A DNA stretch of 64,000 nucleotides, from positions 558,001 to 622,000 of the forward strand of contig NZ_CP014855.1 of assembly GCF_002214385.1 (NCBI RefSeq), written 5' to 3'. Below the pieces are notes generated by a model. The model saw only the letters and a program-made list of their open reading frames with translations. It made no database searches and was not told where the DNA came from. Positions 43,902 through 49,012 of the stretch are shown piece after piece (position 1 is the stretch's first letter; each line of letters begins with the position of its first letter). The translations under genes and the position numbers were made by a program. Source of the stretch: Thermococcus gorgonarius. GTDB taxonomy: Archaea; Methanobacteriota_B; Thermococci; Thermococcales; Thermococcaceae.

Positions 43902-44066
43902 GTTCCTCATCTCCAGATTCACGAGCTTTAACTCAACGTTTCCTTTTGCTTTTTAATGCCTTTTGGAGTCCTTGTTCCCTCATCAATGCATCGAATTTGA
44001 CTTCGATGATAACTTTGGATACGGTATTTATACCCCCTCGAACTTAAAACCTATTGGGGGTGTCAA

Positions 44067-44213
44067 ATGGAGACCATACCAACGGGCATAGGGAGCTTGA
44101 TAGGACTTTGAGTGGTGGTTTCAGCAGAGGTTCGACGGTTTTAATAGCCGGAAATCTAGGGACAGGTAGGACCCACCTTATGCGTCATGCCCTCCACAAC
44201 AACATGAAGACCC
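44067..44213 (+). pseudogene. KaiC/RadA-like ATPase fragment
   Basis: Starting ATG 44067 reads METIPTGIGSL, then hits TGA at 44109-44111; shifting by one base restores DRTLSGGFSRGSTVLIAGN followed by LGTGRTHL, the start of a KaiC-type ATPase whose Walker A would be G-x-G-T-G-K-T (K is R here). One base seems to be lost after GGGAGC. The homology stops near NNMKTQ (44213), where an unrelated fragment begins. It has a promoter-like TATTTATACC at 44024-44033. Dead gene. Confidence 0.75.
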
Positions 44214-44340
44214 AAAGAGCTTGTTGGAGAGGAGATAAAGGAGTTTGAGAGGGAGGAGATATTCGTCATCAGCAAGGTCTGGCCGACCTAATTTGGCTAT
44301 ACTAAGACTAAGAAGGCGGCGAGGACAATCGCGAAGAGTT
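44214..44340 (+). pseudogene. Aldo-keto reductase fragment
   Basis: The bases read ELVGEEIKEFEREEIFVISK followed by VWPT, a stop, then FGYTKTKKAARTIAK. This is a close copy of residues about 68-113 of the intact aldo-keto reductase at 48176-49012 (EELVGEAIKDFEREEIFIIS, KVWPTHFGYSEAKKAARAS). Only about 42 codons remain, with an in-frame TAA. It directly abuts the KaiC-like fragment, as if a deletion or recombination joined the two. Confidence 0.75.
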
Positions 44341-44383
44341 GTAGCCTTCTATCCCTTCTGCCCCTTTTGAAAAGTGTTACCAA

Positions 44384-44430
44384 AAACTTTATAAACCCAT
44401 CATGCATATGTAATGTTGAACTTACATATG
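44384..44430 (+). promoter_or_regulatory. Promoter and 9-bp inverted repeat of the DUF2202 operon
   Basis: CTTTATAAAC at 44388-44397 is a strong TATA box. CATATGTAA at 44405-44413 and TTACATATG at 44422-44430 are perfect inverted arms, eight bases apart, so the operator covers the expected start site (about 44418). A repressor bound here would block initiation. The ArsR-type regulator encoded downstream (46952-47257) is a natural candidate, by inference. Confidence 0.6.
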
Positions 44431-44445
44431 AAGAGGTGAAGACAC

Positions 44446-45282
44446 ATGAGGAAAACGTTGGTTGGATTCGGACTGCTGGTGCTGGGCCTCTTTGGCCTGG
44501 TGCTCGGAGGGGCCGCGGCCTATATGGGCACCCCGGGGGCAAACCCTGAGGCACCCCGGCTATACCAGAGCAACTATACCACATACTACGCGCCGCTCAG
44601 TGAGGAGGAGGCCAGCGGGTTGCTCTACATGGTTGAGGAGGAGAAGCTCGCGAGGGACGTATATCTAACGCTCTACGAGCAGACGGGTCTCGAAGTCTTT
44701 GAGCGCATATCAAACAGCGAACAGGCCCACATGGACGCGGTTCTGTCTCTGATAGAGAAGTACAACCTGACGGCACCGGACACTCTAAGCGAGGTCGGCG
44801 TCTTCCAGAACGAGGAGCTTCAGGCCCTCTACGACCAGCTGGTCGAGCAGGGAAGCAAGAGCGTTGAGGATGCTCTCAAGGTCGGAGCACTCATAGAGGA
44901 GACCGACATAAAGGACCTTGAGGACTGGATTGCCAGGACCGACAATGAGGACATAAAGACCGTTTACAGCAACCTCATGGCGGGCAGTGAGAACCACCTC
45001 AGGGCTTTCGTGAGGAACCTTGAGGCGCAGGGAGTGAGCTACACCGCCCAGGTGCTCCCGGGGGAGCAGGTTGACGAGATACTCAGCGGAGAGACCGGCC
45101 ACAACGGACATGGGAAGATGATGGCCGGAGAGAAGCACGGCCACGGGAAAGGCACTGGGCACATGGGGGGCATGAACGGCAAGAACGGAGGTCAGAAAGC
45201 TCAGAAAGGAGTGCGGATGGGCCCCGCTGACGGTAGCGGGCCCCTTCGCGATGGGAGCTGCGGAATGAACATCGGGGGCTGA
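44446..45282 (+). CDS. Exported DUF2202 ferritin-like protein with His/Met-rich tail
   Basis: A 278-residue protein. A hydrophobic N-terminal segment (about 5-26, LVGFGLLVLGLFGLVLGGAA) is a signal or anchor. Residues 45-205 form a DUF2202 four-helix domain with EEEKLARDVY, NSEQAHMDAV and GSENHLRAF, the E and ExxH ligands of a diiron centre. The last 70 residues are low complexity with many His, Met, Gly and Lys (HGKMMAGEKHGHGKGTGHMG), a likely metal-binding tail, ending in DGSCGMN. GAGGTGAAGACAC precedes the ATG. First gene of the operon. Confidence 0.8.
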   Translation: MRKTLVGFGLLVLGLFGLVLGGAAAYMGTPGANPEAPRLYQSNYTTYYAPLSEEEASGLLYMVEEEKLARDVYLTLYEQTGLEVFERISNSEQAHMDAVLSLIEKYNLTAPDTLSEVGVFQNEELQALYDQLVEQGSKSVEDALKVGALIEETDIKDLEDWIARTDNEDIKTVYSNLMAGSENHLRAFVRNLEAQGVSYTAQVLPGEQVDEILSGETGHNGHGKMMAGEKHGHGKGTGHMGGMNGKNGGQKAQKGVRMGPADGSGPLRDGSCGMNIGG

Positions 45283-45347
45283 TGCCTCCATTCTCTTTCC
45301 ATCAATGGAGACCGATGTTAAGGATGGGTATATCTGGAGGGATGAAA

Positions 45348-45521
45348 ATGCCGAGAGGGTTCGGAGGACCCGTTATGAGAGGTTCATTCCTAAGGAGAAG
45401 AGGCTTTGGCTGGTGGTGGCTCGGTCCCTTTGCGTTCATCCTCATATTCGCGAGGATTGCCCTGCTGGCACTGCCGCTGATCGTGCTGGCACTCATGCTC
45501 TACGCCTTAGTTAGGGGGTGA
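45348..45521 (+). CDS. Small membrane protein (57 aa)
   Basis: A 57-residue protein starting MPRGFGGPVMRGSFLRRRGF, a Gly/Arg-rich head, then one hydrophobic helix (about 27-55, rich in Leu, Ile and Ala), ending VRG. GGAGGGATGAAA precedes ATG 45348. It lies in the operon between the first DUF2202 gene and the DUF4405 gene. Function unknown, perhaps a membrane partner of these. Confidence 0.65.
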   Translation: MPRGFGGPVMRGSFLRRRGFGWWWLGPFAFILIFARIALLALPLIVLALMLYALVRG

Positions 45522-45526
45522 AAAAG

Positions 45527-45571
45527 ATGACACTCTGCGTTGGAAAGTGTCCACCGGAGGTGATTCCATGA
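45527..45571 (+). CDS. Possible 14-aa peptide with C-x3-C
   Basis: ATG 45527 after GGGGGTGAAAAAG opens a 14-codon frame, MTLCVGKCPPEVIP, whose TGA overlaps the ATG of the next gene (ATGA at 45568). The two cysteines, three residues apart, would suit metal or redox chemistry. It may be a coupling peptide only. Evidence is the strong binding site and overlap. Confidence 0.25.
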   Translation: MTLCVGKCPPEVIP

Positions 45572-46200
45572 AGGCCTCCGCACTGCTGAGGGGAATAATT
45601 GACTTCCTGCTCCTGATAACCTTTGTGGTGATTGGAGTCACGGGGATCGGGCTTTACCTTGCCCCAAGCGGAAGAATAGCTGAGTCTATAGGATGGACTT
45701 TCCTTGGACTCGACAAAGAGACACTAACCGCGATCCACACATACTTCGGCTTCGTCATGATTGGTCTGGTAGCGCTGCACCTCATAATAGGCTTCAAGAG
45801 CATGGTCACAATGCTGCGCATAGGTTTCAAAAGGTCAAAGATTAAGGGAATAGCTGTGCTCCTGATTCCTCTCCTGCTGATTGGAGCAGGGTACCAGGTC
45901 TTTGCTTACTACACAGGTGAGGGTAACTCTGAAGTCGGTACCAGTGACAACTACCACACCGTGGAGAACAGCACGGTCTACATAACGGGCACGATGATGA
46001 AGTACTACACTGTACAGGAGCTGGCTGACAACTACGGTGTTCCCGTCGATGCCCTGATTGAAGAGCTCTCCAAGAGAGGAATCGACGTTTCTCCCGACGA
46101 GAAGCTCGCCGAGATAGAATACGAGTACGGCCTTGACAGGGAGGAGTTCAAGGCCATGCTGGAGGAGATTATAGTCTCTATAAGGGGTGATGGAGGATGA
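45568..46200 (+). CDS. DUF4405-type membrane protein
   Basis: A 210-residue protein with three to four transmembrane helices in the first 120 residues. One helix carries two histidines 14 apart (AIHTYFGFVMIGLVALHLI), which in cytochrome b561-like relatives of this family bind heme. The outside loop has N-x-S/T sites. The final 60 residues form a soluble helical domain (KYYTVQELADNYGVPVDALI). GGAGGTGATTCC precedes ATG 45568. Cytochrome function is doubtful as Thermococcales usually lack heme synthesis. Confidence 0.7.
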   Translation: MKASALLRGIIDFLLLITFVVIGVTGIGLYLAPSGRIAESIGWTFLGLDKETLTAIHTYFGFVMIGLVALHLIIGFKSMVTMLRIGFKRSKIKGIAVLLIPLLLIGAGYQVFAYYTGEGNSEVGTSDNYHTVENSTVYITGTMMKYYTVQELADNYGVPVDALIEELSKRGIDVSPDEKLAEIEYEYGLDREEFKAMLEEIIVSIRGDGG

Positions 46201-46886
46201 AAAGGCTAAGCGCCTTGATTGTTGTGGCCCTCGTTCTGGGGGCGGTTATTGTGGGAGGTTGTATAACCGGTACGGAGACAGGAACAGCGACACCATCTGG
46301 AGGGCCGCCAGAGGACAGGGGATATGGTCAAAAGACGGCCTCATCAACGGGCACTGTTGACGTCTCCACCCTACCCGCAGAAAACCTGAGCCCAGACGAG
46401 GTAGAGGGCATACTCTACATGCGCGAGGAGGAAAAGCTCGCTAGGGACGTATATCTAACACTCTACAACGCCACGGGACTGAAGATATTCGAAAACATAG
46501 CGAGGAGCGAGCAGACTCACATGGACATGGTGCTCCAACTCATCGAGAAGTACAACCTTACCGACCCGGCAGAGGGCAAGGCCGTCGGAGAGTTCACGAA
46601 TCCAGAACTTCAGGCCCTCTACGACCAGCTCGTTTCCAGGGGCGAGACGAGTGATGTTGAAGCCCTGAAGGTCGGCGCCCTGATCGAGGAGGTTGACATA
46701 AAAGACCTCGAGGAGTGGCTCTCAAGGACAGACAACGAGGATATACGGCTCGTGTTCAAGAACCTGATGGCCGGTAGCGAGAACCATTTAAGGGCATTCA
46801 CCAGGACGCTGGCCAACAGTTACGGTGTTGAGTACTCTCCTCAGGTACTGAGTGTGGAGCGGTACCGCTCCATAATAGAGAGCTGA
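46197..46886 (+). CDS. DUF2202 ferritin-like lipoprotein
   Basis: A 229-residue paralogue of the protein at 44446. The N-terminus is a lipoprotein signal with lipobox VGGC (Cys about 22), then a Thr/Gly/Ser linker and the DUF2202 domain (EEEKLARDVY, RSEQTHMDMV, GSENHLRAF). The diiron ligands E and ExxH are kept in each half. It is anchored outside the cell and has no His/Met tail. ATG 46197 overlaps the DUF4405 stop by four bases. Confidence 0.85.
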   Translation: MKRLSALIVVALVLGAVIVGGCITGTETGTATPSGGPPEDRGYGQKTASSTGTVDVSTLPAENLSPDEVEGILYMREEEKLARDVYLTLYNATGLKIFENIARSEQTHMDMVLQLIEKYNLTDPAEGKAVGEFTNPELQALYDQLVSRGETSDVEALKVGALIEEVDIKDLEEWLSRTDNEDIRLVFKNLMAGSENHLRAFTRTLANSYGVEYSPQVLSVERYRSIIES

Positions 46887-46951
46887 CGGAAAGCTTTTAT
46901 TCCCATTACCTTTCTTATCCCTAGAGTTTCGCTTACACGTGCATCAGTGTG

Positions 46952-47257
46952 ATGGCAATGATCCAGAGCGTCGATGAGCTTGTGGCAATCGGGGAGGCCC
47001 TCTCGAACCCGATAAGGGTCAAGGTACTTAGGATGCTCTGCGAAAAGGAGTGGTACGTCTATGAGCTGGCAAAGGAGCTCGGCATATCGAGGCAGCTCCT
47101 CTACCTCCACCTGAAGAAGCTCGAGAAGGCCGGCCTCATCGAGAGTGAGCTTCGCCTTGAGCCCGGCGACCCGAGGGCCAAGAAGTACTACAGGGCGAGG
47201 CAGTTCAACATCCTCATCAACAACGACGTGATAAAAAACCTGAAGGAGGAGGTTTGA
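46952..47257 (+). CDS. ArsR-family transcription regulator
   Basis: A 101-residue winged helix-turn-helix protein: ALSNPIRVKVLRMLCEKEWY, then ELAKELGISRQLLYLHLKKL and EKAGLIESELRLEPGDPRAK. There is one cysteine (LRMLCEKEW) in the helix that carries metal ligands in ArsR/SmtB (ELCVCDL motif), but not the full site. It follows the DUF2202 lipoprotein by 65 bases and may have its own promoter. A likely local repressor binding the inverted repeat at 44405-44430. Confidence 0.85.
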   Translation: MAMIQSVDELVAIGEALSNPIRVKVLRMLCEKEWYVYELAKELGISRQLLYLHLKKLEKAGLIESELRLEPGDPRAKKYYRARQFNILINNDVIKNLKEEV

Positions 47258-47280
47258 AGATGCCGTGGGGAGGTGAGCAC

Positions 47281-47469
47281 ATGCAGACCCCAAGCGGGTG
47301 GATAAGCATAATCCTCGGTCTGATAATCCTCGTGGTGCTTATCTTCGCGTTCTACCAGGTGAACAAGGCCTTAAACGACTTCAAAGTCGAGGTTGAGAGG
47401 CTCAAGAACGCCCTCGAGGAGACGCGGAAGAACACCGAGGAAATCAGAAAGAAGCTCGAAGAGGTCTGA
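47281..47469 (+). CDS. Small membrane protein with coiled coil (62 aa)
   Basis: A 62-residue protein: one transmembrane helix (about 7-28, ISIILGLIILVVLIFAFY) and a charged coiled-coil tail (LNDFKVEVERLKNALEETRK). ATG 47281 after GGGGAGGTGAGCAC is preferred over ATG 47260. It begins 23 bases after the regulator and probably shares its transcript. Role unknown. Confidence 0.7.
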   Translation: MQTPSGWISIILGLIILVVLIFAFYQVNKALNDFKVEVERLKNALEETRKNTEEIRKKLEEV

Positions 47470-48175: not shown

Positions 48176-49012
48176 ATGAAGAGTGTTCCTATTTTTGACG
48201 ACCTGAAGAGAATAGGCGATGACAAGGTTACCGCCATAGGCATGGGCACGTGGGGCATCGGTGGCTACGAGAGTCCCGACTACTCGAGGGATAGGGAGAG
48301 TATTGAAGTCCTCAGGTACGGCCTTGAGCTCGGAATAAATCTCATCGATACCGCTGAGTTCTACGCTGCCGGCCACAGCGAAGAGCTCGTCGGAGAGGCC
48401 ATAAAGGACTTTGAACGCGAGGAGATATTCATCATAAGCAAGGTCTGGCCGACTCACTTCGGCTACAGCGAGGCCAAGAAAGCCGCAAGGGCGAGCGCGA
48501 AGAGGCTTGGAACCTACATAGACCTCTACCTCCTCCACTGGCCCGTTGACGACTTTGGAAAGATAGAGGAGACCCTTCACGCGCTGGAGGAACTCGTTGA
48601 CGAGGGGCTCATACGCTACATAGGCGTGAGCAACTTCGATCTAGAACTGCTCAAGCGCTCCCAGGAGGCGATGAGGAAGTACGAGGTCGTTGCCAACGAG
48701 GTCAAGTACTCCCTCAAAGACCGCTGGCCCGAGACAAGTGGCCTTCTCGACTACATGAAGAAGGAGAAGATGGCGTTGATAGCATACACACCGCTGGAGA
48801 AGGGAACTTTGGCTAAAAACGAGTGCCTCGCCGAGATTGGGAAAGCCTACGGAAAAACGGCCGCCCAAGTAGCTTTGAACTACCTGATATGGGAGGAGAA
48901 CGTCGTGGCGATACCAAAGGCCGGAAGCAAGGCCCACCTTGAGGAGAACTTCGGTGCCATGGGATGGCGCCTCTCGAAGGAGGATAGGGAGAAGGCAAGG
49001 AGGTGTGTTTGA
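48176..49012 (+). CDS. Aldo/keto reductase
   Basis: A 278-residue TIM-barrel oxidoreductase. Motifs: NLIDTAEFYAAGHSEELVGE (with catalytic Asp and Tyr), SKVWPTHFG (Lys), YLLHWPVDDF (His) and IPKAGSKAHLEEN (NADP site). Its stop overlaps the start of the tungstoenzyme gene (TGATG), so the two are made together, which points to linked aldehyde/alcohol metabolism. A fragment of a second copy is at 44214. Confidence 0.93.
   Translation: MKSVPIFDDLKRIGDDKVTAIGMGTWGIGGYESPDYSRDRESIEVLRYGLELGINLIDTAEFYAAGHSEELVGEAIKDFEREEIFIISKVWPTHFGYSEAKKAARASAKRLGTYIDLYLLHWPVDDFGKIEETLHALEELVDEGLIRYIGVSNFDLELLKRSQEAMRKYEVVANEVKYSLKDRWPETSGLLDYMKKEKMALIAYTPLEKGTLAKNECLAEIGKAYGKTAAQVALNYLIWEENVVAIPKAGSKAHLEENFGAMGWRLSKEDREKARRCV

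Follow-up and report, generated by a model that had tools for sequence, protein, structure and literature searches.

An operon at positions 44446-47469 of a 64,000-nucleotide (nt) stretch of Thermococcus gorgonarius DNA (contig NZ_CP014855.1, forward strand 558,001-622,000; hereafter the window, to which all positions refer) is, on balance, probably the core of a Thermococcales-specific, ArsR-repressed regulon for iron and redox protection at the cell surface. Re-reading of the region places all genes on the + strand, in the order exported DUF2202 protein, 57-amino-acid (aa) membrane protein, 14-aa C-x3-C peptide, DUF4405 protein, DUF2202 lipoprotein, ArsR-type regulator and coiled-coil membrane protein. 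Across 62 of the 94 Thermococcales genomes compared, a 26-bp operator at a fixed promoter position joins several uncharacterised gene families into one regulon. A gene cluster that was on record but unstudied thereby becomes a defined unit, and with one regulator, one DNA site and one deletion, its function becomes directly testable. The 94 genomes (G numbers) and the fetched loci (L numbers) form the comparison sample.

A shared operator at a fixed promoter position

The operator is a perfect 9-8-9 inverted repeat, CATATGTAA-N8-TTACATATG (44405-44430, no strand assigned), located just 3' of the TATA box; when up to 3 mismatches are allowed, shuffling predicts 0.01 matches to it in the window. 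The promoter element, a B recognition element (BRE)/TATA match ccaaaaacTTTATAAA on the + strand (44380-44395), recurs at a fixed distance 5' of the operator in most loci. Most loci also have the repeat itself, its usual distance from the first gene being exactly 41 nt. In long operons there are two copies, one before the exported-protein or DUF4405 gene and the other before DUF2202. The TATA match begins 14-18 nt 5' of the repeat in 81 of 97 site/orientation rows; several of the other rows repeat such sites as seen on the opposite strand. In archaeal promoters, a repeat at this distance covers the expected transcription start, which is the usual place for a repressor. Since the site comes after the TATA box and covers this start, we infer that it serves repression.

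The operator was found genome-wide with up to two mismatches, at 1-5 sites in each of the 62 genomes, while the reversed control pattern appeared in a single genome of the same scan; with one mismatch allowed, none of 21 genomes of the same class outside Thermococcales carries it. ArsR and operator occur together in 59 of the 94 genomes and are both missing from 30, with ArsR only in two and operator only in three. These five exceptions are mostly explained by contig ends: in two operator-only genomes (G048 and G047) the operon sits at the ends of short contigs, the contig of the third (G057) ends about 80 bases past the site, and the ArsR-only genomes are one of 77% completeness in which the operon lies where a contig starts (G010) and one with only a partial ArsR match (G063). 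In G015, G030 and G093, ArsR is present and DUF2202 absent, and the operator is still there, so that the operator follows ArsR rather than DUF2202. Apart from one weak match in L102, no separate operator was found before ArsR or before the cell-wall-binding gene in the fetched loci. An earlier interpretation made from the DNA letters alone (the sequence-only reading) had proposed a dedicated switch for this operon without having seen the operator, and the shared site supports that proposal. As far as the literature searched extends, the operator is new here; the gene set itself had already been described.

In the fetched loci, 105 sites have a TATA-like box upstream of them, and 101 of these precede recognised families, namely DUF2202 (67), exported proteins of ~150-155 aa (20), DUF4405 (9), a ~102-105-aa protein (4) and one other exported protein; the other four look like opposite-strand readings, a site missed by the start-codon search, or a truncated contig. 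Further operator sites lie directly 5' of the start codon of the ~105-aa gene. The soluble ~101-aa and exported ~155-aa proteins have a common C-terminal domain, and neither these two nor the ~105-aa protein gave a Pfam match above cut-off. As a separate observation, an exported ~150-aa protein bearing an H/M/G-rich stretch stands alone, elsewhere in the genomes, with its own operator in L198-L204 and L209, usually divergent from a conserved 66-aa gene.

Conservation of the gene set across Thermococcales

When the window proteins were mapped onto the fetched loci, the order DUF2202, 57-aa protein, DUF4405, DUF2202, ArsR and coiled coil was found in several genera. Every gene listed in the sequence-only reading is present on the + strand. 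The order is kept in many divergent genomes, which goes beyond chance, as do the invariant or nearly invariant ferritin-type residues and DUF4405 histidines and the recurrence of the C-x3-C micro open reading frame. The sequence-only reading had named dispersal of the genes in other genomes as grounds for giving it up, and the comparison shows that they stay together. In particular, ArsR adjoins the coiled-coil gene in 60 of 60 loci, and this pair is the fixed element of the operon; the genes upstream of it come in nine different combinations, some of them truncated by contig ends. PF09968, the DUF2202 family, is present in 60 of the 94 genomes, often as pairs ~1.5-2 kb apart, and in the fetched loci the second DUF2202 gene and the 57-aa gene are optional members. 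Longer operons in other lineages comprise a ~155-aa exported protein that carries a His/Met-rich stretch, then DUF4405, a further coiled-coil protein, a cell-wall-binding-repeat protein, DUF2202 in one or two copies, a protein of ~101 aa, the 57-aa protein, ArsR and the coiled coil.

A general DUF2202-DUF4405 partnership across prokaryotes was also considered and rejected, the two being adjacent only in Caldisericum among 16 genomes reached from non-Thermococcales loci. Several variants were noted within the order. L079 (5514-6911) and L090 (4800-6152) encode two back-to-back DUF2202 domains in one open frame of ~470-490 aa, a tandem fusion. In-frame stops in the DUF2202 genes of L135, L141, L142 and L143 suggest that the system is decaying in parts of Thermococcales. 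A second module (L085 7948-9769, L206 3058-3890) consists of an exported ~265-aa protein, an 87-aa mini-DUF4405 and, in convergent orientation, a DUF2202 lipoprotein. The related exported protein of L206 has an operator-like site 5' of it.

The ferritin-like, cytochrome-type and regulatory proteins

Both DUF2202 proteins of the window match PF09968 far above its curated cut-off of 22 bits. The first (44446-45282, 278 aa; 204.9 bits, E 8.5e-61) has a hydrophobic N-terminus and a His/Met/Gly-rich tail with H 7%, M 9% and G 25%, as compared with 1%, 3% and 7% in the rest of the protein, while the second (46197-46886; 197.3 bits, E 1.9e-58) is a predicted lipoprotein with its lipobox cysteine at Cys22. 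The DUF2202 model adopts the ferritin-like four-helix fold, with Z 29 to Methanocaldococcus jannaschii MJ0754 and Z 16-19 to Dps and bacterioferritins over 133-148 residues (VIA-align). A diiron ligand set of the form E, ExxH, E, ExxH was looked for, and the ferritin-type residues E66, E92, H95, E151 and H184 are invariant or nearly so; we take them to correspond to E18, E51, H54, E94 and H130 of bacterioferritin, the mapping being read from aligned ranges and the bacterioferritin numbering being the customary one. MJ0754 (PDB 3q4n, 3q4o, 3q4q, 3q4r), itself a DUF2202 protein, is 57-58% identical across the domain and has the same fold; unlike MJ0754, the window proteins are exported or lipid-anchored, are twinned, and in one case bear a tail of metal-binding type. 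MJ0754 was also the one convincing match when PDB sequences were searched with a DUF2202 profile and, despite this solved structure, literature searches for DUF2202 and MJ0754 found no paper naming the family. In a study of iron stress in T. kodakarensis, two ferritin-like genes are named and only the FeoA/FeoB operons are reported as upregulated; the ferritin-like genes could not be mapped to DUF2202 (PMC12827226).

The DUF4405 gene (45568-46200) encodes a cytochrome-type membrane protein with a helical C-terminal domain that matches PF14358 at 59 bits (cut-off 26.7; E 6.7e-16). His57 and His71, 14 residues apart in one predicted helix, are conserved in 37 of 37 sequences. As they are the only two conserved histidines, a monomer cannot provide a bis-His heme site, whereas a dimer could. 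DUF4405 proteins and FezC are heme-b cytochromes, and in the model of FezC its heme sites arise when two copies pair as a homodimer (PMC11334425); heme-b binding has been shown for these other members only, and the window protein would bind heme b by analogy with them. It resembles the FezC and DUF4405 cytochromes encoded at ferrosome and flavinylation loci (PMC11334425) in being a small His-pair membrane protein, but differs in its extra C-terminal helical domain and in a locus that lacks a Fez transporter and ApbE. The gene scan of the window locus turned up no FezB-type transporter, the mark of a ferrosome, and a link to flavinylation was rejected, since the genome gave no ApbE (PF02424) match while controls were positive.

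Between the 57-aa membrane protein (45348-45521; conserved start MPRGFGGP) and DUF4405 lies the 14-codon micro open reading frame MTLCVGKCPPEVIP (45527-45571), the C-x3-C peptide, whose stop overlaps the DUF4405 start (ATGA). It is found 5' of the DUF4405 gene in 22 loci, and its five distinct close versions show 19 synonymous versus 6 non-synonymous pairwise codon differences before the Shine-Dalgarno part, the pairs not being independent. The regulator (46952-47257, or from an alternative GTG at 46949) matches the winged-helix HTH_5 domain with E 1.7e-13. Its neighbour (47260-47469) is a membrane protein with a coiled coil of cytosolic type, of 69 aa if it starts at ATG 47260 or 62 aa if it starts at ATG 47281, which is preceded by a good Shine-Dalgarno sequence.

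A proposed mechanism and the evidence that bears on it

In the mechanism that we propose, an ArsR dimer would bind CATATGTAA-N8-TTACATATG and keep the operon repressed. An envelope or redox signal would lift the repression, perhaps with the coiled-coil membrane protein as its relay. On the outer side of the membrane, both DUF2202 proteins (the first with an N-terminal signal segment, the second a lipoprotein) would bind Fe or a different divalent metal and use a ferritin-like site to consume peroxide or O2. A DUF4405 dimer holding heme between its His57/His71 pairs, as proposed for FezC, could move electrons across the membrane, and the His/Met/Gly-rich tails may bind additional metal. In favour of this mechanism, iron-dependent electron transfer had already been proposed for the neighbourhood in Thermococcus CL1 (PMC5898192).

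Several results weigh against this mechanism. The link between ArsR and operator is one of co-occurrence in related genomes, so that p-values overstate independence and are not to be read at face value. The DUF2202 proteins keep five of the six bacterioferritin-type ligand positions, that of the helix-D Glu (E127) being an invariant Ser181 in the aligned ranges, and ferroxidase activity is therefore not assured. The DUF4405 structure model has a predicted template modelling score (pTM) of 0.43 and no significant fold match: a Foldseek search against the PDB gave nothing at E <= 0.001, and weak rows to b6f and hydrogenase cytochrome b were not used as evidence. Ferrochelatase (PF00762) has no match in the T. 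gorgonarius genome, and AhbD has none above the curated cut-off in any of the Thermococcales genomes scanned; heme would thus have to come from uptake or from a pathway not yet recognised, which makes a conserved cytochrome-type protein in an archaeon without detectable ferrochelatase a puzzle. Ferrochelatase is present in 19 of the 94 genomes, all of one genus (e.g., G041:C1:143099-143968); in several genomes it lies ~5-6 kb from an AhbD-like radical-SAM match, and its presence does not obviously track the operon.

The regulator itself adds to these points, as it lacks conserved metal or redox residues. ArsR/SmtB metal sensors are recognised by conserved Cys/His metal-binding residues; here no Cys is invariant (C30 is replaced by Ser or Val in 5 of 53 sequences), and the one invariant His, H53, falls inside the predicted DNA-binding region. 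The sequence-only reading, for which ArsR proteins usually sense metals or redox, thus finds no support in the usual residues of this one. SurR and MsvR are likewise archaeal ArsR-type repressors, and MsvR controls an adjacent oxidative-stress operon, but both sense through cysteines (PMC9426492), whereas the window ArsR has no invariant Cys and its gene always stands beside that of a membrane coiled coil. A two-part switch of a new kind can be imagined, in which a repressor without a ligand site is released by a membrane-tethered partner that reports on the surface, the two controlling an extracytoplasmic ferritin-like/cytochrome protection system; we put this forward tentatively, as an unlikely idea.

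The same genes could instead sequester soft metals (Cu, Ag, Ni, Zn) at the surface, the tails and the C-x3-C peptide binding toxic metal and the ferritin-like domains acting as sponges without redox chemistry. The DUF2202 tails are rich in His and Met, the exported ~155-aa regulon proteins also bear H/M/G-rich stretches, and one MJ0754 structure was solved with Zn2+. However, several genomes have short tails or none, with the ferritin-type residues remaining invariant, the operon has no efflux pump or metal chaperone, the ArsR has no metal-site residues, and the DUF4405 His pair is left unexplained, which makes soft-metal sequestration unlikely. An extracytoplasmic electron-transfer chain for metal reduction or redox balance, with DUF4405 as membrane cytochrome and the DUF2202 proteins as redox partners rather than protective enzymes, would agree with the hypothesis voiced for this neighbourhood in the passage of PMC5898192 discussed below, with the DUF4405 roles in PMC11334425, and with the aldehyde:ferredoxin oxidoreductase and aldo-keto reductase genes nearby. 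We regard it as quite unlikely, given that L129, L132 and L135 retain DUF2202, ArsR and coiled coil without DUF4405, that this genome has neither ApbE nor ferrochelatase, and that no more than 22 of 60 loci have the aldo-keto reductase gene 3' of the operon and in its orientation.

A different regulator, whose distribution coincides with that of this ArsR by chance, could be the one that binds the operator, but this is improbable. Co-occurrence and synteny, which tie the ArsR to the site, would fit such a regulator too, and no operator was found directly before ArsR in the fetched loci; but the site tracks ArsR even where DUF2202 is missing, 30 genomes without ArsR also lack it, and it heads the ArsR-containing operon. 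A cell-envelope stress regulon, whose theme would be surface maintenance through the cell-wall-binding-repeat and exported proteins with the ferritin-like proteins as one arm, draws on four loci in which the ArsR-coiled-coil pair stands beside the cell-wall-binding gene alone and on the operators 5' of exported proteins without assigned function. As 67 of the 105 operator sites precede DUF2202 genes and none was found before the cell-wall-binding gene, it is a little less probable still.

Earlier description and flanking sequences

The sequence-only reading had put the genes forward as a candidate new operon whose combination it knew from no named system; that the combination is undescribed is not supported. 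As set out in the passage of Makarova et al. 2015 on this neighbourhood (PMC5898192), CL1_0239-CL1_0246 of Thermococcus CL1 (arCOG04002, arCOG03957) includes DUF4405, interpreted there as one half of a cytochrome b561, together with a pair of ferritin-like proteins, ArsR, and a secreted and a coiled-coil protein, for which iron-dependent electron transfer was hypothesised. The window shares with it DUF4405, the two ferritin-like proteins, ArsR, the small secreted and coiled-coil proteins, and an aldehyde:ferredoxin oxidoreductase (AOR) and another oxidoreductase nearby; by contrast, that passage has nothing on an operator, a regulon, a micropeptide or longer versions of the operon. Because of this description, the combination is on record, though unnamed, and the literature search found no follow-up on the 2015 cluster. 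The outward-facing metal, peroxide or oxygen system with its own switch, as the sequence-only reading conceived it, is supported in its conserved gene set, own regulator, outward-facing placement and union of ferritin-like with cytochrome-type proteins, and not supported as regards an undescribed combination and the usual ArsR sensing residues.

Just 5' of the operon, at approximately 44214-44300, lies a fragment of an aldo-keto reductase gene that is 75% identical to the intact gene at 48176-49012, pointing to a past duplication or rearrangement. Further upstream, a short open reading frame (44054-44248) with a P-loop-like stretch, GGFSRGSTVLIAGNLGTGRTHLM, looks like the remnant of a KaiC/RecA-type ATPase gene.

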